Position numbers and translations under genes: made by a program. 64,000 bases of DNA from Prorocentrum cordatum (Eukaryota; Sar; Dinophyceae; Prorocentrales; Prorocentraceae), in contig CAUYUJ010015704.1 of NCBI GenBank assembly GCA_963575745.1, forward strand, positions 222,501-286,500, read 5' to 3'. The first letter of the stretch is position 1. Each line of letters begins with the position of its first letter. The notes under the pieces were generated by a model. That model ran no database searches. It had not been told where the DNA came from and worked only from the letters and a program-made list of their open reading frames with translations. Below are positions 17,766 to 64,000 of the stretch, piece after piece.

Positions 17766-17879
17766 TGACCGCAATGATTGCAGTAAGTTGCGGCGGCCGT
17801 GGCAAAGCCAACGATGACGGTGACACAATCAAGACGGCACGTTCCAACGTGTAGCGCAAAGAACCACAACTGTCACCGC

Positions 17880-17896
17880 GTAGCCATTTTGGCTCA
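17880..17896 (+). other. Relic of the dinoflagellate spliced leader
   Basis: The sequence is identical to 17 nt of the conserved dinoflagellate spliced leader (GTAGCCATTTTGGCTCA). Preceding bases read ACCGC instead of CC, and following bases are CG instead of AG. It ends 21 nt before ATG 17,918. In dinoflagellates, leader relics in genomic DNA mark genes that came from reverse-transcribed mature mRNA, which is a known phenomenon. A chance 17-nt match in 64 kb is very unlikely. Confidence 0.85.
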
Positions 17897-17917
17897 CGCA
17901 CGCCAGCAGACGCTAGC

Positions 17918-20219: not shown

Positions 20220-20880
20220 CCCCCCCCCCTCCCCCCGGACTTATCGGGTCCCCCGCGCGAGCTGTAAATCACATATGATTCTGACCACATGTCCATCTTA
20301 AATATGAATTCGTACCATTCCAGCCAAGCCGGCATCCCCCCCCCCCCCCCCTGCGGTCCCCTGTCAAATAACACTATGCGGGGACATTTTTCTTTCTGAC
20401 ATAACATTTTTGCACGAATCCATTGCAAAAAATTGGCGAAGTGCACGCGCGCGCGTCGTCGCGCGCGCATGCCGAAATCCTTCAAAAACCTTCGGTGCTG
20501 GAAGGATTTCGCAACCGAGTTTCCGAAAACACATACAAAAGCACATGGTTTCGCAACACTGATTTGCTAAAAAAACTTCCGCGCGAGCTCTTGCGAAATC
20601 TTAAGAAAACCATAGGTTTTCCAAGATTTTCACAAAATGCTACCAAACGGGCTTCGCGCGCGCGCATGTCGAAATCTGTCGAACGCCCTTGCGCGTGTGC
20701 CGTCGCGAGAATCCTCTGCAACAAATGAGACGAAGTGCAGACGCGCGCGTCGTCGCGGACGTATGCCGAAAGCCTTCAAAACCCATCGGTTTCGGAAGGA
20801 TTTCAAAATCGCGCGTCCAAAAAACCTACAAGAACCCAAAGTTTCGCAACACGGATTTTCAACAAAAGCGTGCGCGCGCG
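20220..20880. repeat. CG-hairpin dispersed repeat, copy 1
   Basis: Modules shared with 48.5, 57.3, 58.2 and 63 kb occur in the same order. First comes a TATGATTCTGACC / AAATATGAATTCGTACCATT module at 20,274-20,335. Modules with GCGAAGTGCACGCG and the self-complementary CGCGCGTCGTCGCGCGC, then CCGAAATCCTTC, follow at 20,438 and 20,730. Short ORFs cross it in all frames and are not genes. Confidence 0.85.
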
Positions 20881-48519: not shown

Positions 48520-49554
48520 GGCAAATTGAATGTGATTCTGCCCCATCGCCCATCTTAAAAATTAACACGCGCCCTCGGGCAGGCCGGCATTGGCGCCCCC
48601 CGTCACCCTCTGCAGAACACCCTGCACGCGCGCGCTCTCTTTTCTGAAATTATCAGTTTTCAAGAATCCCTTGCCGAGAGAAAATGCGAAGTGCACGCGC
48701 GCGCGTCGTTGCGCGCGAAGTGCACGCGCGCATCGAAAACCTTGCGTTTCGCGGGGGTTGGACAACCGGGCGTCGACAAGCACGAAGAAAACATGGCTTC
48801 GCAGCGCGCGTTGCATTTACATGAACAGAGCTGGGACGAAGTGCGCGCGCGTCGCCGCGCACGCATGTCGAAGTTCTTCAAAAATTGGTGCATTCGTTGC
48901 GGTGTCGAAATCGAGCAACCAAAACGCGCGCGTGCATGCCTGGCTTCGCAATGCCGTTTTATCAATATAGAAAGACGCTTGCGCTCGCGCACTTGCGAAT
49001 ACTCCGGAAAACGATTGGTGTTCCAAAATTTTCATAACTGCTACCAAACGGGGCTTCGCGCGCGCATGTCGAAATCGCTTGAACGCCCTCGCGCGCGAGC
49101 TGTCGCGCGAATCCCTTGCAAATCACGGGGCGAAGTGCGCGCGCGCGCGCCGTCGCGCGCGCGCCGAAATCCTTCCAGAACGCCGGGTGTCGCAAGGATT
49201 TCGAAATCGAGCGTCGCGAAGCCATGGAACAACACATGGCTTCGCAACGACAGTTTTCATGCAACCTTGCATCCCTCTTGCGGGTTCTGAAGGAGACCAT
49301 CGCTTCTTCAACGTGTCCATGGAATTATGCCGCGCGGGCCTCTCGCGCCGCATGTCGAAATCATTCGAACGCCCTCGCGCGCGTGCGGCTGGGGGCTTTC
49401 TCGCGCGCGCTGCCGCGAGAAGCCAGCGCATAACGCAAGGGGAAGCGCGCGCGTCGCATCGCGCGCGCGCCGAAATTTCCCAAGAGCCCGAGGCGTCGCA
49501 AGGATGTCCAAACCGAGCGTTGCGATGCCGCAACGACAGCTTTCGCGCGGCAGA
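48520..49554. repeat. CG-hairpin dispersed repeat, copy 2
   Basis: The GTGATTCTGCCCCATCGCCC module (48,531) is followed by GAAGTGC(A/G)CGCGCG modules at 48,688, 48,838 and 49,130, with CATGGCTTCGCA at 48,791, 49,236 and variants. Element 49,555-56,602 is inserted at its end. Confidence 0.85.
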
Positions 49555-49662
49555 TGATACGAGGCACGCTCGGCGGGGGGAACCCCTGGGGAGGACCCGT
49601 CAGAGCGGACCGAGGGTAGTGCAGGCCAGCGTGAGCGGGAGCCTCAGTAGTCGTCTTGGCTC
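49555..49662 (+). repeat. Split repeat A1 (108 bp, left end)
   Basis: Matches A2 over 108 bp with five mismatches by my count. It starts TGATACGAGGCACGCT and ends GTCGTCTTGGCTC. 49,644-49,665 agrees with the 22-nt dinoflagellate spliced leader at 18 positions, ending GGCTCAAG. Confidence 0.95.
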
Positions 49663-49718
49663 AAGCACCGAGTTGAGTTCAAGGCAGAGTGCCAGCCCTG
49701 CGCCCGCGCCGCCCCCCT

Positions 49719-51471
49719 ATGCCAGGGCCGTGGGTTTTGTCGGCGTCGGACCCGGAGTACGCCAAGGCGTTGCGCCTGAAGGCGGACAGCATCATCGAGG
49801 TCCGGTGCTACGACGACGACGGGGGCGACCAGGGCACGGCCATCCTGCGCCTGGAGGGCGACGGGAAGGTCGGCGACACCATCCAGGCGCGGTGCGTGGC
49901 CGCGAGCGACGATTATTACGCTCATTGGGCGGCTCGGCAGGAGAAGGTGGGCCAGTGCCACTTCTGCCGGGGTCGCCGGGAGCGATGCCGGACGACCGAC
50001 GTCACCACCCGCATCGAGACGCTCCGGGAGCTCTCGACCGCGGACTTGGGGAAGGGCGGCCTCAAGTGGGTCCAGGGGCCCGCCGCGAAGGCCGTGGAGG
50101 AGATCCTCAAGGACCGTGAGCGCGGCGGAGGGGCTCCGCCATCGCGCTCGCCTCCAGCGGCTGGCCCCCGGCCGCCAGCCGAAGGCGGAAGGCCAGCCCG
50201 AGTGCGGCAGGCAGAGGAGCTGTTCGAGCCGGGCGAGGGCAAGGCGGGCGACTTCGAGGGGGATTTGCGCGAGCTCAAGGACAGGGCGGCCGAGGGGGGC
50301 CCAGGCGGGATCGCAGGGGGCGCGAACGCTCGCGCTCACCGAGTCCCCGGGGTCGCCGGGCAGAGGAGAAGCGAGCCAGCAGGAGCGGCCGACGGTCGCG
50401 GCGAGGACGCCGGGACCCGTTCGGGCCTGCTGCAGGAGGAGATCGTCGGGGAGCCGTCCGGGCACGTTCCCCGCGCGAGGAGAGAGGAGCTGGCCGCGGT
50501 GCAGATCGCGGAGAGGCCGCGGGCGCTCGTCCACAGGAGCCTGAGCAGCAGCCAAGGAGGCGCAAGGAGAGCCCCAAGAGGGGCGGCGACGCAGTCAGGA
50601 GGAGCAGGGAAAGGAGCACGCAGAGGAGGAGGAGCCATAGCCATGAGAGGGGCAAGAAGAGGAGGACCAGGACGAGGTCCCGAGGGCAGAGAGGAGGGAG
50701 CCATGAGAGGAGCAGGAAGAGGAGGTCCAGATCGAGATCGCGAGGGCGCCGGAGTCGGCGGCAGAACAGGAGGTCCTCGCGGACGGACTGGGGGCCTTTC
50801 GGGGCCAGTGCGCCGATGGACGAGAGGAGTCGGAGTCCGAGCTATGCGTCGAGTTTTCGCTCAGCCTCCCCTTCGCGCGGGCAGCTGTCTCACAGCCGCC
50901 TGCTGGAGTACGCGGTGCGTCATCCAGGTCGGTTAGCCCAGAGGCTGCTTGCAAGAATGCGGGCTCTGTCCGATCGCGGGGGGGGGGGGGGGGGGCGTCC
51001 ACGGCGACGGCCTCAGAAGTACAGCAAGGAGCCATGCGCTACTGGTTCGCGATCCTCCAGCCCCAGAACCCCAGCATGGGGCCCCTGAATGCGCGGGAGA
51101 CCAAGACGATTTGCACCGCCTTGGATCTTCTGGCCGAGAAGCGCTACGGCGAGGCAGCAGACCTCTTGGGCCAGAGGTTGAAGGCCATCGAGAGGGCCCT
51201 CAAGGACGGGCACTGGCAGCGGGCCGTGTGGTGCGAGCTGATCCCCCCCGACGACGTGACGCTCTTGGACCGTGCGGAGGACAAGATGCTCGCGCAGGAG
51301 GAGCGCCTGCAGAACCAGCTGCACTCCAAGAAGCAGAACAACTACCAGGACTACGGCAACATGAACAAGGGCAACCAGGGGTACGGCAAGGGCAACAAGA
51401 GCGACGACCCGAAGGGGAAGAACAAGGGGGCGAAGGGCAAATGGGATCGCAAGGGCGGCCGCCCTTACTAG
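49719..51471 (+). pseudogene. Gag-like protein with frameshifts
   Basis: ATG 49,719 opens MPGPWVLSASDPEYAKALR, followed by a compact N-terminal region with QCHFC and RRERC near 49,955-49,990, a possible metal site. From about 50,110 the frame changes. A basic Arg/Ser-rich segment follows in a second frame (50,630-50,830, SRKRRSRSRSRGRR), then LLEYAVRHPGRLAQRLL. A G17-type run at 50,978-50,994 shifts the frame once more. The C-terminal part (51,034-51,471) reads TALDLLAEKRYGEAADLLGQ and ends in a Lys/Gly/Asn-rich basic tail at TAG 51,469. It probably binds the element RNA. The poly-G run could also be misassembled. Confidence 0.7.
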
Positions 51472-51548
51472 GAGGCCCCGCGATAACCCTTCAGGAACTC
51501 CGAGCGCGTCTCCGGTGCCAAGGGTCCGGGCGGCTCTCGGTGCTGGCG

Positions 51549-54500
51549 ATGGGTAGGGTGCTTTGGGAGACTGTGTGCCGGTTGCCGACTCCCCTTGGGG
51601 GTTTCGTGCGCTGCGCCTCACTGGGCGTTCCGCCCGACCGGCGCCGGTCTCTCCTGCCCCTGCCAGTCGAGGAGTTCGTCGAGGTCGGCTCCGCCCGCTT
51701 CCGGAGCTCAGGGAAGGAAGCAGAGGCGGATATCAGGTGCTGGTGCCGCTTGATTGCCCATTCGCTGAACTACCTTGGGGCCGGGTTCGGAGCCTCTGGC
51801 CGGGGGGGGCCGCCTCCCCGGCGCTCGAATCCAGCGCAACGTCGGGCCATGGCTCGGTTAGCGGAGGTCCTGCAGTGGTTCTTGGCGGAGGACGACGCGG
51901 ACCCGCCCGCGCTCTCCGACGTCTTCCGCGAGGCCCGCCAGAAGAAATTCAATTATGGGGGTGAGGCCGTGACCCACCGCAGGGAGCTGTATGCCGATCT
52001 TGTTTTCCCGACGTGGCCGGCTAGCCACGAGGTGGGCGTGCTCGATCTCACGGATCTCTTGGTCGGCGACCTCAAAGCGACAGTGCAAGACCCATCGAAG
52101 TGCTTACGGCCGCGGGGCGAATGGCCCGACAAGCCCCACGTCTCCAGGGTGCACGCTTCCCAACACGAATGGGACAAGCTGGCCGGCGAGGGGCTTCGAC
52201 GGGGCATTTTTCAGGAGATCGAGGGCAACAGGGTGTTCAAGGCGAAGGATGGGTCGCGCCTGCTCAACGGGGCCATGGGGGTCAACAAGTTCAAGGAGGT
52301 CCAGGGCAAGGCGATGCACCACCTCCGGGCCATCACGATTATGACCCCCCTGAACCAGCATTTGCGCGAGATCACTGGCGAGGTCGATTACCTCCCGTGC
52401 ATTGCCCACGCAATTCTCATCATCCTGGGCGCCGACGAGGAGGCAGTGGTCGACAGCGAGGACTTCGTGAGCTGCTTCAACCTGGTGCGCATGCCTCGCT
52501 CGTGGACCGGGTTCCTGGCTTACGAGAAGCCCGTGTCAGGGTCGGTGTTGGGCCGGCCTGATGGATGTGACTTCTTGATCGGCATCACCACCGTCCCGAT
52601 GGGGTGGTCTGGAGCGGTCGCGGTCATCCAGGCGGCGGTGCGCAGGCTGGTGTTCGGGGACGCGGAGGTGGACGTCCAGACCCGGATCGCCAGGTGCAAG
52701 CCCTTCCCAAGAGGCCCGGATTATTCGTTGGTCTACTTGGACCCCTTCGACTTCATCCGAAAGCGGTGCCGACAGGCCCTGGGGGAGCTAGGCGGCTCGG
52801 AGTCCAAAGAACACGCCCGCTTTCTAGACGCATGCCGCCTGATGGGTCTTCCTTTGTTGAATGCTGGAAAGACATTGGTAGGATCCTACCGCGCCGCGCT
52901 TCAGGGCGGCGAGTTCGATGGCAGGCCGGGCAGTTTGGCTCGCAGCCAGAAGCGGGGCAGGCATTTAATCCGACTTACTTCGGGCATGGCGGCCCAGGGT
53001 TTTTGGCCTGAAGTTGTTCTTCGCCATTGGGCTGAGCTTGCCTGCTACGCTCGTTCGTACCGGAGGCCCCTCTTCTCCCTCATGGCGGAGGTTTTCACGA
53101 CCATGGACAACTGCCATGGGGGCGACGTCTTCCACGAGGCAGCCTTGGACGAGATCATACTCTTCGCTGCCCTGGCCCCGCTTGCGGCCACGAACCTGCG
53201 GGCGCCGCTGGCGCCGCGGATCAGTTGCACTGACGCTTCCCCAGATGGCGGAGGCGCTGGCCTCGCAGCGTCTTTCTCGAAGGTGTTGGGGGCCAGCTGC
53301 GCCGCCCAGGAGGATGAGGATGAGGATAGGGAGGGCGAGGTCGCGACGACGCAGGAGGAGGAAAACGACGACGTGGAGGACGCGCAGGAGCCCGAGGAGG
53401 ATTGCCGCTAGGAGCCTGAGGAGGAAGAGGATGACGAAGAGGAGCAGGGCGAGGCGCCCCTGCAGAGCGCGCAGGCCCCTGGACCTCGACCAGCCGTCCT
53501 GCGAACGTGGCCGAAACTCGCCCTCTGCAGGTTCCCGTGCCCGGGCGGCTGCCCGGCCCGCCTCGACACTTAGGAAGGGTTGCGCGTTCACCGCGAGGGC
53601 CCGCGCAGGAGTTGCCAAGGAGTGCCCTTCGGCAGCGCGCCGCGTTGCTTGCACGTCGGCCTCGAGGGGCTCTACGAGCAGATGGGAGCCCCCATCGCGG
53701 AGAAGGGGATCGAGGTAAAAATGGAGGTCATCATCCAAAACGGCGTCGTGAAGAACGACGTTGAGGCCCCTGAGGCCTGGGCCCATTTTCAGCCCGAGGG
53801 GCGAACAGTGGCCCGGAGCGGGGACGGCATCGCCTTGCGCAGTTGGAGGGCGCGGAAGGGGCTTCCGCGCTTGCCGGCCGCTCTGAGCAGGGAGGTTCGC
53901 AAGGAGAATCTGCAGCACGCCTTGTGCGCCCGAGCGTTGCAGGCCGAGGGCAAACGCGAGGGCGCGACCGTTGCGCAGGTGGACTCTGGCAGCTGGTGGC
54001 TGGAATGGCCGCGGCTGAAGCATCTCAGGCACATGGGGGAGGTATTCTACACGTCTGTGGGGCCTCACGTGCTGGCGCATACTTCGCCAGAGCTGCACCA
54101 GAAGTTTCTCGGGCGCTGGAGCGCAAATGAACGCGCTGAGACCGCTCTCGACTGGGTCAGCGAGTACGCCGAGGAGGTGCATAATTACATCGCGCGCGCT
54201 CGAACGGCGCTGCTCCCTAGCGATCCTGGCGAGCGACAGCCGTGGTTGAGGCGGCAGCTGGCTGGCGCTACTAACCGCCTGGCCGACGGGGCCGTCAACG
54301 AGGTGGTCGCCCAGGAGCTCATGCGCTGGATCAGCGGCATGCTTCCCGGCCTCGAGGCGGAGCACGTGTGCCATCTCATCCGGTACGTGGATCACCGGGG
54401 CTCCGACGTGCAGCTGTGGGCCGGCGAGCTTCTACGGCAGTCGCGGCAAGCAGCCCCGTGCCCTGCCTTCCGGTGGGCATGGAAGGCGGTGGCGTCGTAC

Positions 54501-54815
54501 CCGTGGTCGGAGACAGGCCACATCAACGTCTTGGAGGTCTTGGCCTTCCTCTATTTTGTCCGGCAGTCGACGGGGAGCGGAGTGCTTCAGTCGACCCAGT
54601 TTGTGCATGTTGTGGATGGCATGGTAGCGTCGGCAGTCATCGCCACAGGGCGGTCCTCTTCTAAGCTTCTCAACTTTCGGTTGCGTCAACTGGCAGGACT
54701 CCTGCTTGCCGCGGATGCCTACCCCTACGTCGTGTGGGCGATCTCTTCTTGGAATTTCGCCGACCGCGCGAGCCGGTGGTGGCCGGCGCGGGGCTTTCCA
54801 GAGCAACATGGGTAA
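51549..54815 (+). pseudogene. Reverse transcriptase-RNase H polyprotein, two in-frame TAGs
   Basis: One frame from ATG 51,549 to TAA 54,813, interrupted by TAG at 53,409 and 53,570. The same frame is open from 50,949, so it overlaps gag in -1. Motif A is SEDFVSCFNL with Asp 52,461, motif B VPMGWSGAV near 52,593, motif C YLDPFD at 52,734-52,751. The second Asp of the usual YxDD is Pro; relatives I remember also vary here. RNase H starts with CTDASPDGGG (Asp 53,232). It is split by an acidic insert with the two stops, then continues with INVLEVLAF (Glu 54,534), VVDGM (Asp 54,616) and WNFADRASR (Asp 54,761). The enzyme would make the DNA copy of the element. Confidence 0.85.
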
Positions 54816-55757
54816 GTTCCTCATGCGGCACCGTGCCGCGCGACGGAAGGGGTCACTCAGGGAAGTTGGGATCAAGGAGGCAACGCTTCGACGCTATCGA
54901 ATTCGTTTTCGTTCATTTTTTGATTATTTGGAGCTGCGAGGGCAGGCTCTGCCGCACAGCCTCGAGGAGCTGGACGCGAGGGCCAGCGAGTTCGTCGACC
55001 ACCTGTGGGGCGAGGGAGAGCCAGAAAGCTGGGCCACTGATATCGCCTCTGGCTTGAAGCGCCTGGTCCCCAGAGCTCGGAAGGCGCTCACCGTAACGGG
55101 CTTCTTCCTCAACAATTGGCGCCGGACAGTTAGCCGATGCAGGGCTTTACCGTTCACGCCACTCATCGTCAAGGGCCTGGCGGGGATGGCGTTCGCGGAG
55201 GATTTGTGGAACTTCGGCACCGCTCTCTTAGTTGGCTTTGTGGGGTTGCTTCGTACAGACGAAATTTTGGGGCTCCGCTCACGCCGCGTCATGTTCTATG
55301 AGAGCCACCAAAAAGCCATCATCATCTTACCCGAAACGAAAACGGGCTCCCGAGAGGCTAGAGTGGAAAAAGCAATGGTGAACGACACCGTTGTCGTCCG
55401 CGCCTTGGCCAAAGTCTGCCAACAGCTGAACGGCGACGAACTGCTGCTGCCAATGCGCCCTCACGTTTTCAATGAAGAGCTCAGGAGGTTGGCAGAGCCG
55501 CCGGCATCCAGTCACGGGGCGTGTCTGGATGTAGCTTGCGCCGGGGCGGCGCCACGTGGCATTTCCTCTCTGGTGGCAGCTTGGGGCGCGCGATGGTGCA
55601 CGGCCGGTGGGCCCATGAGAAAACAGCGCGGATCTATATCGACGGGGCTCTGGCCCAGCAAGCCGATTGGGCACTCAGCGAGTCGGCTCGCGCGCTCTTA
55701 AGGCTCGGGGGCCGAGTCGCGGCAGGCTTGCTGGGGGGTGGTGCCGGTCGGCAGTGA
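54808..55757 (+). pseudogene. Tyrosine recombinase, one frameshift, His lost
   Basis: ATG 54,808 overlaps the end of the RNase H frame (ATGGGTAA), an overlap common in this superfamily. An N-terminal helical region (to about 55,100) resembles a core-binding domain. GLLRTDEILGLRSRR carries the first catalytic Arg (55,252), and ETKTGSREA the Lys. Near 55,510 the frame shifts; the other frame gives SLRRGGATWHF, MVHGRW and TARIYID, with the nucleophile Tyr at 55,635. The residue expected to be His in HxxR is Cys (55,530). Total about 316 residues. It would join the circular copy to the chromosome. GGTAAGT at the start also fits a 5' splice site. Confidence 0.85.
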
Positions 55758-56118
55758 CAAGGGTGCTGTCGGGGAAGGGGGGCTTCCTCCCCCTGGGGGG
55801 CAGGGTCGCAGGGCCCTCGCCCTCTGGGGTCCGGCGCCGTGTGGCGGGGCTAAGGGGCTTGGCGTTGAGAGCCGGGCGGCGTGGTTAACCATAGGGTTGC
55901 CCTCGCTTGCCCGCCCGCCCTCCCGCGCCTTCTGGTTGAAGCTTCGTCGCCCCGCATGGGGCAGGTCCGCGGCGCGCTGCCTGCAGGCAGGCTCGTGCTT
56001 GTCTAGGCTCGCTCGTGCGGGCCATGGGTGCAAAGGCTCCCAAGAAATGCATAGCCCGGCGTTGTCTGGGGGGGTGCGGGGTGCGCCCCCCTGGAATGGG
56101 GGCACGGGTGGTTGCGTG
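55758..56118. other. 3' region of the element, non-coding
   Basis: GC-rich, with an ORF (55,738-56,298) that runs into the repeats and has no recognisable domain. Confidence 0.5.
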
Positions 56119-56290
56119 GCGCCCGGGGGCTGGGCGTCGCCAGGGTCAGAGGCTGGCCTGGGTGGCTGTTGGGGGAGGGGCCCCCTCGCCAATTCACGCG
56201 TCATCGCTTGCATGCCATTGGATGCGCAGGCCGAGGCAGGTAGCGCGCAAGACAGCGCCGAGGCGCAGCGCAAAAACAGAGGCATGCACT
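56119..56290 (+). repeat. Split repeat B1 (172 bp)
   Basis: Matches B2 over exactly 172 bp with about 13 mismatches by my count. It starts GCGCCCGGGGGC and ends AACAGAGGCATGCACT. It touches A2 directly. Confidence 0.95.
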
Positions 56291-56398
56291 TGATATGAGG
56301 CACGCTTGGCGGGGGGGACCCCTGGGGAGGGCCCGTCAGAGCGGACCGAGGGTAGTGCAGGCCAGCGTGGGCGGGAGCCTCAGTAGTCGTCTTGGCTC
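56291..56398 (+). repeat. Split repeat A2 (108 bp)
   Basis: Internal copy of A1, adjoining B1 with no gap; 32 bp separate it from B2. Confidence 0.95.
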
Positions 56399-56430
56399 CC
56401 ACCACCTCCCCAGCGTCCTCCTGTGAGCCA

Positions 56431-56602
56431 GCGCCCGGGGGCCGGGCGCCGCCTGGGCCAGGGGCTGGCCTGGGTGGCCGTTGGGGGAGGGGCTCCCTCA
56501 CCAGTTCACGCGTCATCGCTTGCATGTCATTGGATGTGCAGGCCGAGGCAGGTAGCACGCAAGACAGCACCGAGGCGCAGCGCAAAAACAGAGGCATGCA
56601 CT
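56431..56602 (+). repeat. Split repeat B2 (172 bp, right end)
   Basis: Copy of B1; ends GGCATGCACT, after which similarity to B1/A2 stops and flanking repeat DNA begins. Confidence 0.95.
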
Positions 56603-57617
56603 AGTGTTTGGTCGCGCTCGCGCTCTTGCGACTTCTTCAGAATGTGGTTCAACATTATTAGTTGAATTCTGCCAGCTGGGCCCCTCGCGCCGAGCGCCGA
56701 CATCGCTCGCGCGCCCAGGCGCGCGCTGGGGGGGGGGGGGGGGGGGGGCGCGATCCGCGTCAGATCATGCCACGCGGGGCACTCTCGCGCGTCGGCCGCG
56801 CGCGCATGTCGAACCCCGCCCAAGCCCTTCATCGCCGACGAGAGGGCGCCGTCATCGTCGACGGCGCGACCAGCATCGGCGTCGTCACTGGCCGCGCCGC
56901 CGCCATTGTCAACGTCGCCACCATCGCGTATGCTGTCGTGGACGTTGCCATGGTGGCGCGCCCGCCCAAGTCGCCGACTCGCACACATGCGCCCGCTGGG
57001 GCGCGCCCCGCGGTCAGCGCCGCCGCGGCCGCGTCGGTCGCGCCAGACCAGCTGGCCGCTGCGCGCGCGCATGCGCGGGCCAGCGCGGCCGCAGAGATGC
57101 ACCAGCCAACGCCCAGCACCCGTGGCAGTCGCCGCCGCTCGCGTCTTGCAAGATAGGTCGCGGGTTGGCGGGCGGCGCGGTTTCGCGAGCAGTGGAGTTG
57201 GTAACTGCGAGATCCACAAGTGCTTTGCGCAACGTAGGTTTTAATTTCTCGAGTGAATGCTGCCCCCCCCTCCCCCCCCCCAGGATTATTGGCGCCCCTG
57301 CTTCGCGCTGCAGTTCGCATGTGATTCCGCCGCGTCGTCTTACATATGAACTCGCACCATCCCAGCTTATCTGGCATCGACCCCCCCCCCCCCTCCGCCA
57401 TTCTCTGCAACGAATATCATGCGCGCGCTCGCCTATCAAAACCCATCAGTTGTCAGGGGCCCCCTGCAGCAGATGGGGCGAAGTGCGCGCGCGTCGTCGC
57501 GCGTGCATGTCGAAATCCTTCGCACCCTCGCGTTTCGTCGGGGTTGCACACTCCGAAGAACACATGAAACAATGATTTCGCCACGCGGCTTATACACATA
57601 TATATATGTATATATGT

Positions 57618-57658
<41 letters not shown>

Positions 57659-58520
57659 CATACATATATACACACGTACATATTATAAGCATGCGCGCGT
57701 GCTGTTGCGAGTTCTTAAGAAACCATCGGGCTTTCAACATTGCACGAAACGCTGCCAAGCGGGCTTGGCGCGCGCATGTCGAAGTAGTTCGAACGCCCTC
57801 GCGCGCGCTGCTGCGAACACCCCCTTCAACAGATGGGGCGAAGCGCGCGCGCGCGCTGCAATCCGACACGCATTTTAGGTTTCGCAAGGATTTCGAAACC
57901 CAGTGTCCCGCGCGCTCGCCCAAGTCGCCGACTCGCGGTGAAGTGCCCGCTCGGATGTGCCCAGCGGTCATTGCCGCTGCGGCCGCGCCGGTCGCGCCAG
58001 ACTAGCTGGCCGCCGCGCGCGCGCATGCGCGGGCTAGCGCGGCCGCAGAGATGCACCAACCAATGCCAAGCACCCATCGCAATCGCCGCCGCGTTGGTTC
58101 GGCAAACCCATTTGCGGGTGGGCGGGCGGGATGATTGCGCGAGCAGTGGGTTTGACAACTCACTGCGAACGAAAATCCGTTATCATTCCTTGAAGTAGAA
58201 CAGATCCTGCCCCCTGGGATTATCGGCGCTCTGTTTCGCGTTGAAATTCGCCCTTGGTTCTGCCGAGTTGTCCAGCCCGCATGTGAACTCATTCTATCCC
58301 AGGGGAGTCGGCCGAGACCCCCTGCGCCATCCCCTGCAACTAGTAGAATGTGCTCACATTCGTTGATTATGAACCATCAGTTGTTATGAATTCTTTGCAA
58401 GCGACGGAACGAAGTGCACGCGCGCGCGTCGTCTCGCGCGCATGCCGAAACCCGTCAAAAAACCTGAGGTGTCGCAGGGATTTGCAGACCGAGTTTCCAA
58501 TATCCCCAGTGCGGCCCTAC
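56603..58520. repeat. CG-hairpin dispersed repeat, copies 3 and 4
   Basis: Two copies in tandem order. In each, a GCGCATGCGCGGGC/GCGGCCGCAGAGATGCACCA module (57,070; 58,022) precedes the GGGCGGG…GCGAGCAGTGG module (57,155; 58,110), a GATTAT.GGCGC module (57,286; 58,217) and a CGAAGTGC.CGCG hairpin module (57,478; 58,410). TA repeats lie at 57,600-57,675. Ala/Arg-rich ORFs are incidental. Confidence 0.85.
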
Positions 58521-62939: not shown

Positions 62940-64000
62940 AGGCAGAGCCTAGGTAGGGAAAAACATGTCTAAACACACATGGTTTCGCAACGCGGATTTT
63001 CAATCAACAAATTAGTTTTCACGCACTTGCGAAAGGCTTAAGAAAACCATTGTTTGATCAACGTTCTCATTACATGCTGCCCTACGGGGCTTCGCACGCG
63101 CGCGTGTCGAAGTCGTTGCAACGCCCTTGCGCGCGTGCTGTCGCAGGAATACTCTGCGAGCAATGGGGTGAAGTGCGCGCGCGCGCGCGTCTTCGCGCGC
63201 GCGCGCCGGAATCCTTCCAGAACGTTAGGTGTCGTAAGAATTTCGAAATCGAGCGTCGCGAAACCAAACAAAAAACAAAACCATTGTTTCGCAGCGACAG
63301 TGTTCAAAGAAGACCATCGTTTCTTCTTCAACATATCCATGGAATTATGCCATGATGGCCAGTCGCGCCGCATGACAAAATCATTGGCGCGCCCTTGCGC
63401 GTGCTGGGGGCGCGGTCCGTGCCAAGTAATGCCGCGCGGGCCACTGTCGCCCGTCGGCCGCGCGCGCGCGTGCCGAACCCCTTCCAGAAACTTTCGCCGA
63501 CGCGAGGACGCCGTCCTTGTCGTCTGCGTGATCAGCATCGGCGCCGTCACTGGCTGCGCCGTCGTCGTTGTCAACATGCCCCCAGCATCGCTACGATCAT
63601 CGTCGTGTCTAGCGTTGTCGACGTTGCCATGGTAACGCATTTGCGTCGGTCGCGCCAAACTAGCCGTCCTCTGCGCGCGCGCGTGCGCGGGCTGTCGCAG
63701 CCGCAGGGGCGCGCCAGCCAACGCCATGCACTCATCGCAATCGCCACCGCATGGATTTTGCAGACCAAATTGCAGGTGGGTGGGTGGGATGATTGCGCGT
63801 GCAGTGGAGTCGACCAGCTCAAGTTCGGTTGGGTGAACTCTCTTTTATTGGCGCCCCTTATCGCATTTAAAATTGTATATGGTTCTGCACCATCGTCCAA
63901 TTAAATATGAACTTGTGCCATCACAGTCCAGCCAGTATCGACCCCCTGCGTCATCCTCTACAACACATACTCTGCGCGCGCATTCGTTGATCCAAAACCA
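62940..64000. repeat. CG-hairpin dispersed repeat, copy 5 (runs off the window)
   Basis: Order as in the other copies: ACATGGTTTCGCAACGCGGA (62,980), the CG hairpin (63,170-63,210), a CGGCGCCGTCACTGGC module (63,539), GCGCGTGCGCGGGC (63,683), the GGTGGGTGGGTGGGATG / GCAGTGGAG module (63,776) and TTATTGGCGCCCC (63,846). It continues to the last base. Confidence 0.85.

Follow-up and report, generated by a model that had tools for sequence, protein, structure and literature searches.

How might a retrotransposon be copied by a reverse transcriptase (RT) whose family lacks one of the catalytic Asp residues, and how are its ends rebuilt? Both questions are raised by a 7,048-bp element at 49555..56602 (+ strand, as are its parts below) of the window, the whole 64,000-nucleotide stretch of Prorocentrum cordatum DNA analyzed here. 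Overall, we consider it probable that the element is a decayed split-direct-repeat tyrosine-recombinase retrotransposon with an RT from a lineage without the second Asp, for which we infer the steps of replication.

Anatomy of the element and its copies

The original prediction described a tyrosine-recombinase retrotransposon in a dinoflagellate-type genome, and both parts proved correct: the host is P. cordatum, and the repeats, the shared ends and the coding for RT, RNase H and a tyrosine recombinase (YR) identify the element. The outer ends, A1 (108 bp, 49555..49662) and B2 (172 bp, 56431..56602), had been claimed to be exact to the base, which is borne out by their recurrence in unlinked copies. 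The predicted repeat lengths and the abutting of B1 and A2 also hold: B1 (172 bp, 56119..56290) is followed by A2 (108 bp, 56291..56398) with zero intervening bases, and a 32-bp spacer (56399..56430) precedes B2. A1 and A2 are identical at 103 of 108 positions, and B1 and B2 at 159 of 172.

As predicted, gag (here a gag-like region), RT-RNase H and YR lie inside. The gag-like region (49719..51471) occupies more than one frame in the window copy; sister copies, L015 among them, are similar here to the N-terminal portion of P0011, a protein model from P. cordatum that joins gag to pol. The pol frame (51549..53411) encodes the RT and the first part of RNase H. The N-terminal part of RNase H (ISCTDASPDGGG, 53220..53255) is separated by an insert (53256..54395) from the C-terminal part (RGSDV...HINVLE...WNFADRASR, 54396..54815), and the YR follows at 54808..55756. 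The predicted overlap of the last two frames was found as well, since the YR ATG at 54808 overlaps the end of RNase H, with its stop codon at 54813-54815, and the stop-to-stop frames overlap over 54628-54815. The window copy, whose sequence is carried by the P. cordatum protein P0010, is damaged by a pol stop (53409-53411), a frame change in the C-terminal third of the YR and a Pro in the RT loop. A Pfam search with six pieces of the window gave no family at E 1 or better. Runs of G occur at 50978-50995 (18 bases, inside gag, at the reading-frame change) and at 56728-56748 (21 bases, just beyond the element).

No inverted repeat pairs were detected in the window at the settings used, and thus no inverted terminal repeats of the DIRS1 kind. 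The order A1 - B1 A2 B2, with the internal repeats 3' of the recombinase, and the coding for RT, RNase H and YR are those of Ngaro and VIPER. Given real repeats, shared ends, a sister subfamily of the same layout and unfilled sites without target duplication, we read the element as a split-direct-repeat tyrosine-recombinase retrotransposon that has decayed and resembles Ngaro and PAT in its layout. The PAT/Ngaro signature of the original prediction stands with regard to the split direct repeats, in a layout already published for dinoflagellates and a copy that is decayed; the altered RT loop and the leader-like A1 end described below were no part of that prediction.

The YR assignment is supported by a family profile of eight sequences, which matches XerD (E 1.9e-4); Phage_integrase was matched in two of the eight members. 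The R, K, R and Y of the R-K-H-R-(H/W)-Y set are in place, and the box II His is replaced: by Tyr in the six database proteins that show the position and in L015, L017 and L023, by Cys in the window and in C17245, and by Tyr, Cys or Gly across the members read. This replacement is itself unusual for a recombinase.

The proposed check, a search of the 4.13-Gb assembly with A1 and B2 as queries, gave at least 14 matches for each. Among 12 A neighborhoods read, seven copies (window, L015, L016 = L017, L018, L019, L021 and L025) begin with TGATnnGAGGCAC after dissimilar flanks, while this start is not kept in L020, L022, L024 and L026. The right end GCATGCACT is found in three copies (window, L015 and L019), and variants of it in four more (L016/L017, L023, L024 and L026). 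L015, with 92% protein identity to the window copy, has A1 and one B only; L016 and L017 are a single internally deleted copy, represented twice and with one B only; L023 is decayed and retains B1-A2-spacer-B2.

The repeats might instead be a satellite or a dispersed repeat functionally unlinked to the coding region. Short A-plus-B derivatives without coding do occur (L019, L024 and L026), as had been named as a sign against the element, and five B-matched contigs (C2503, C17808, C20688, C18554 and C14198) have no A among the matches listed. Nevertheless, the matches in 4.13 Gb number at least 14 each, and none of the A1 and B2 matches listed is arranged in tandem, on which grounds a satellite origin was rejected. 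Furthermore, the paired A1/B1 copies that were read contain coding, and the coding is enclosed by the same order and ends at several loci and in a diverged subfamily. We therefore regard an unlinked repeat as extremely improbable, and retain the reading of A and B as the ends of the element.

A related host repeat at 62961..63850 (+), a diverged paralogue that lacks the element, can be aligned without a gap over the site where the window element is inserted. The element lies between stretches of a dispersed GC-rich host repeat that is seen again elsewhere in the window (48900-49554, 20412-20861, 57689-57856 and 62980-63810). Elsewhere in the window, 1905-2933 is a tandem repeat with a period of about 135 (or 269) bp.

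A recent sister subfamily and its insertion sites

An RT search of the genome, in which 73 of 29,619 first-look candidates were scored, yielded at least 80 matches, and a copy on contig C17245 was read to both ends. Its end repeats are 98% identical (A1/A2, 245 bp, 240/245; B1/B2, 206 bp, 203/206), one base is common to B1 and A2, the spacer is 176 bp, and the coding consists of a pol frame of 1,469 aa and a recombinase frame. On all nine contigs with A matches of at least 98%, the last base of B1 is the first base of A2, and the A1-A2 pair was found on seven of them. Since C4273 and C2544 have both flanks in common, and C16315 shares the right flank with them, these three may represent one locus. 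For C17456 and C6961, B2 was matched in part only, and the right ends of these two copies were not found within the stretches covered. Two copies of the subfamily also carry partial B repeats about 85 bp 3' of A1 (C17456:293641-293793 and C1418:50801-50930).

The fused B-A junction of this subfamily reads TGTGTG-AAA-CACACA. At the left junctions with the host we found AAA (C4273, C2544, C1418, C6961 and C17456), TAA (C1381) and CAA (C17245), and at the right junctions AAA (C4273, C2544, C1381, C1418 and C16315), AAG (C17245) and ATA (C11448). The flanks on the two sides of the C17245 element, joined into one probe of 182 positions, find an unfilled site on C17660 (positions 4-181 of the probe, 82%), and nine further loci also match over the joint, by 25 bases or more to its left and right. 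The two sites read, C17660 and C790, have a single AA and no duplication, and the adjacent bases differ in C790. In these unfilled sites, which are paralogues of a dispersed host repeat and not alleles, there is no duplication beyond the 2-base core. The insertion pattern, a short core without target duplication, fits a tyrosine recombinase.

The reverse transcriptase and the split RNase H

The canonical Y/F-x-D-D box of RTs is absent from the window family. Motif A of the window copy contains its catalytic Asp at 52461..52463 (D-S-E-D-F-V-S-C-F), whereas motif C (52740..52745) reads Asp-Pro where other RTs have Asp-Asp and relatives have Ser or Gly at the second position. The RT family retains motif A (D-x-E-D...CF), motif B (PMG) and motif D (N.GK), and its motif C reads YLDSFD, CMDGFD and similar. 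Motif C was readable in 44 of 46 homologous proteins; the second Asp is missing in 42 of these, with Ser or Gly in 41 and Pro in one (the window's own protein), and is kept in P0043 and P0046. In the genome itself, it is missing at all 30 loci read from the at least 80 matches (20 Gly, 9 Ser and Pro in the window), most of which contain no stops inside the match. L015, the copy closest to the window, has Ser. Eight codons are used at the replaced position (TCC, TCG, TCT, AGC, GGA, GGC, GGG and GGT).

Of 41 pol members, four matched RVT_1 (best E 8.2e-4); PDB profile searches with the RT gave weak zinc-finger matches only, and a scan of viral contigs produced 25 pattern matches and no relative. 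Among the literature matches listed, judged by title and start of abstract, we found no report of such an RT without the second Asp. As for annotation, one source lists P0011 and P0022, P. cordatum pol proteins of this family, under unrelated names (1,3-beta-glucan synthase and RNA-dependent RNA polymerase, respectively), and P0036 combines the family pol model with a ribosomal S8e domain (PF01201), and is probably a fused gene model.

An RT tree was constructed by a quick method from 61 rows and 378 columns, with the trait column removed; P0043 and P0046, both on long branches, serve as its outgroup, and the remaining rows are of the window family only. Eight proteins (P0004, P0009, P0010, P0040-P0042, P0044 and P0045) and seven near-identical loci of the genome (L035, L037, L039, L040, L042, L044 and L045) were left out. 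The D-G sequences form one clade (SH-aLRT 98), and the replaced-residue states need three changes. In the family rows of this alignment, both remaining Asp residues (that of motif A and the first of motif C) and the motif B Gly are each present in 59/59, and the motif D Lys in 58/59, with one gap. An acidic residue (D/E) is found at motif A minus 3 in 59/59 rows and at motif C plus 3 in 57/59, and at neither position in P0043 and P0046. The acid immediately preceding the motif A Asp was also considered as a substitute and rejected, because P0043, which keeps Y-I-D-D, has one too.

The missing residue is one that Ty1 and Ty3 need in vivo. The Ty3 D214N and D214E mutants keep polymerase activity with reduced processivity, and no mutant transposes (PMC5371799); in Ty1 D211N, kpol is 223-fold slower and transposition is lost, to be partly restored by RNase H suppressors (PMC2148107). 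The RT of the lineage might accordingly be catalytically dead, with the enzyme supplied by canonical elements and pol retained for RNase H or for structure, and canonical relatives (P0043 and P0046) are indeed present in the protein database. This explanation is at odds with the near-complete conservation of the four residues counted above, with a replaced position constrained to Ser or Gly over eight different codons, and with the finding that none of the 30 RT loci of the genome has Asp-Asp while most lack stops in the match.

Selection also bears on this point. Seven pairs met the limits of dS 0.02-0.9 and more than 300 codons. The dN/dS was 0.23-0.27 in four of them, which are the youngest comparable pairs and are not independent, as L051 is in all, and these low values again speak against a dead enzyme. 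The other three gave 0.45, 0.75 (window versus L028) and 0.75 (L038-L053). In other stretches, the window versus L015 gave 1.27 in the RNase H stretch and 0.50 in the recombinase, and the window versus L017 gave 0.39 and 0.49, respectively. The window pair looks near neutral, as would be expected for decayed copies; selection is argued from the younger group and from the conserved residues. Taken together, we consider a dead RT unlikely. Since the Ty1 and Ty3 second-Asp mutants polymerize and do not transpose, the D-S/D-G lineage looks like a natural solution to working without this residue.

In the 25 family proteins from which it could be excised, the insert that splits RNase H, between SDASxxGGG and RGSDV, is 224-403 aa long. 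The corresponding slot of P0043 is occupied by a cytosine methyltransferase (PF00145, E 4.5e-10), and the family profile aligns with P0043 on either side of it, with a strong match of 64 columns on the C side and a weak one of 23 columns on the N side. Apart from P0043, the Pfam/NCBIfam search recovered no methyltransferase. The inserts of several relatives contain what we take to be C5-methyltransferase-like motifs, in an order that looks right, without statistical support. The HHalign comparison of the insert with methyltransferases (E 0.42) was no better than shuffles, and the insert was therefore rejected as a proven methyltransferase; of the PAT features, the split direct repeats are present and the methyltransferase score is at shuffle level. 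Because the Ty1 suppressors map to RNase H, one could speculate that the split RNase H is tied to the missing RT Asp.

The A1 end, proposed replication and known systems

The 3' end of A1 (49645..49665) resembles the dinoflagellate spliced leader, DinoSL (DCCGUAGCCAUUUUGGCUCAAG; PMC6616646), at 17/21 positions, the second-best match of the window on both strands. The best is 17878-17898 (19/21; GCGTAGCCATTTTGGCTCACG), possibly a retrogene leader relict by its sequence. The A1 end of the C17245 type also scores 17/21, and in both subfamilies the A1/A2 homology ends at the leader-like sequence (inside it, in the window), for which reason the A2 copies score 13-14. In a scan of 592,064 positions in loci of at least 2 kb, which had been picked for these elements, 17 positions reached at least 16/21, and 16 of the 17 are A1 ends, corresponding to eight distinct copies because the loci overlap. 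In 20,000 trials with shuffled leaders, none gave 17/21 for both A1 regions.

The addition of a fresh trans-spliced leader to each new copy was rejected, because A1 and A2 of the window have the same 18 leader-like bases with mismatches common to copies, although at two bases A1 of C17245 agrees better with the leader than does A2 of the same copy. The leader-like end suggests that the element RNA may start there and overlap with A2. An equally plausible account holds that it was passively left behind by an old trans-spliced transcript, or arose by coincidence, and has no role in replication. Dinoflagellate retrogenes often bear leader relicts at their 5' ends (PMC12014239), the 17/21 match is confined to two subfamilies (14/21 in the relatives C13334 and C14928; 13, 15 and 11 of 21 in the A copies L019, L022 and L026), the 18 shared bases of the window are compatible with a relict, and the idea of an RNA start arose after inspection of the data. 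On the other hand, the scan and the shuffled leader make coincidence unlikely, and the end of the A1/A2 homology at the leader-like sequence in both subfamilies is in favor of a role, leaving the chances of this account about even. Among the literature matches listed, judged by title and start of abstract, no report was found of a spliced leader in such elements.

If the RNA does start near the 3' end of A1, it would run on through B1-A2 into B2 and be copied to cDNA. The RNA would not contain the left part of A, so the cDNA would have to be completed on the internal B1-A2 junction, where both true ends already lie fused. The completed product could then become a circle, and the recombinase would recombine the B-A fusion, which in the sister subfamily reads TGTGTG-AAA-CACACA, with a short A-rich target, leaving only the 2-3 base core at both ends. 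For catalysis, the RT would probably rely on the two Asp residues that it still has, possibly assisted by the lineage-specific acids at motif A minus 3 and motif C plus 3. The reading as a whole, in which a lineage that is old and was recently mobile replicates through an RT without Y-x-D-D, those two acids substitute, the leader mimic marks the RNA start because the RNA begins where the A repeat ends, the RNA 5' end and A2 overlap for strand transfer, and the R region stems from the host trans-splicing leader, is tentative, and we rate it as rather doubtful.

The Y-x-D-D box is taken as a signature of working RTs, and without its second Asp Ty1 and Ty3 stop transposing. If the proposal is true, a mobile element can manage without this residue, and the lineage offers enzymes with which to probe how. 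It would also make end rebuilding by split direct repeats testable, as the leader-like A1 end predicts the RNA start and TGTGTG-AAA-CACACA predicts the crossover site.

Among known systems, the Ty3 D214N/E and Ty1 D211N enzymes are altered at the same acidic position and keep polymerase activity in vitro, but they are non-transposing laboratory mutants, whereas the window family is a natural lineage with recent insertions. In layout, the closest counterparts are SymbioDIRS-Dnmt3 and DIRS-like elements of Symbiodinium, for which A-coding-B-A-B has been published (PMC5890265). SymbioDIRS-Dnmt3 resembles the window element in its dinoflagellate host, this layout and its RT/RNase H and tyrosine recombinase; its RT is called divergent, and the available part of the description does not mention a missing Asp (PMC5890265). 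P0043 is likely, on the basis of its PF00145 domain, a member of the SymbioDIRS-Dnmt3 type. It has the same RNase H slot as the window lineage, but combines Y-I-D-D with a cytosine methyltransferase in the slot, in contrast to D-S/D-G and an insert without a recognized domain. Ngaro, VIPER and PAT likewise have A1, B1, A2 and B2 split direct repeats, internal repeats 3' of the recombinase and an overlapping recombinase frame (PMC4157794, PMC6681497 and PMC3783388). Compared with these elements, the window element differs in its RT loop without Asp-Asp, its insert-split RNase H and its leader-like A1 end. The layout is thus already known in dinoflagellates, and what goes beyond it is the RT without the second Asp and the spliced-leader-like A1 end.
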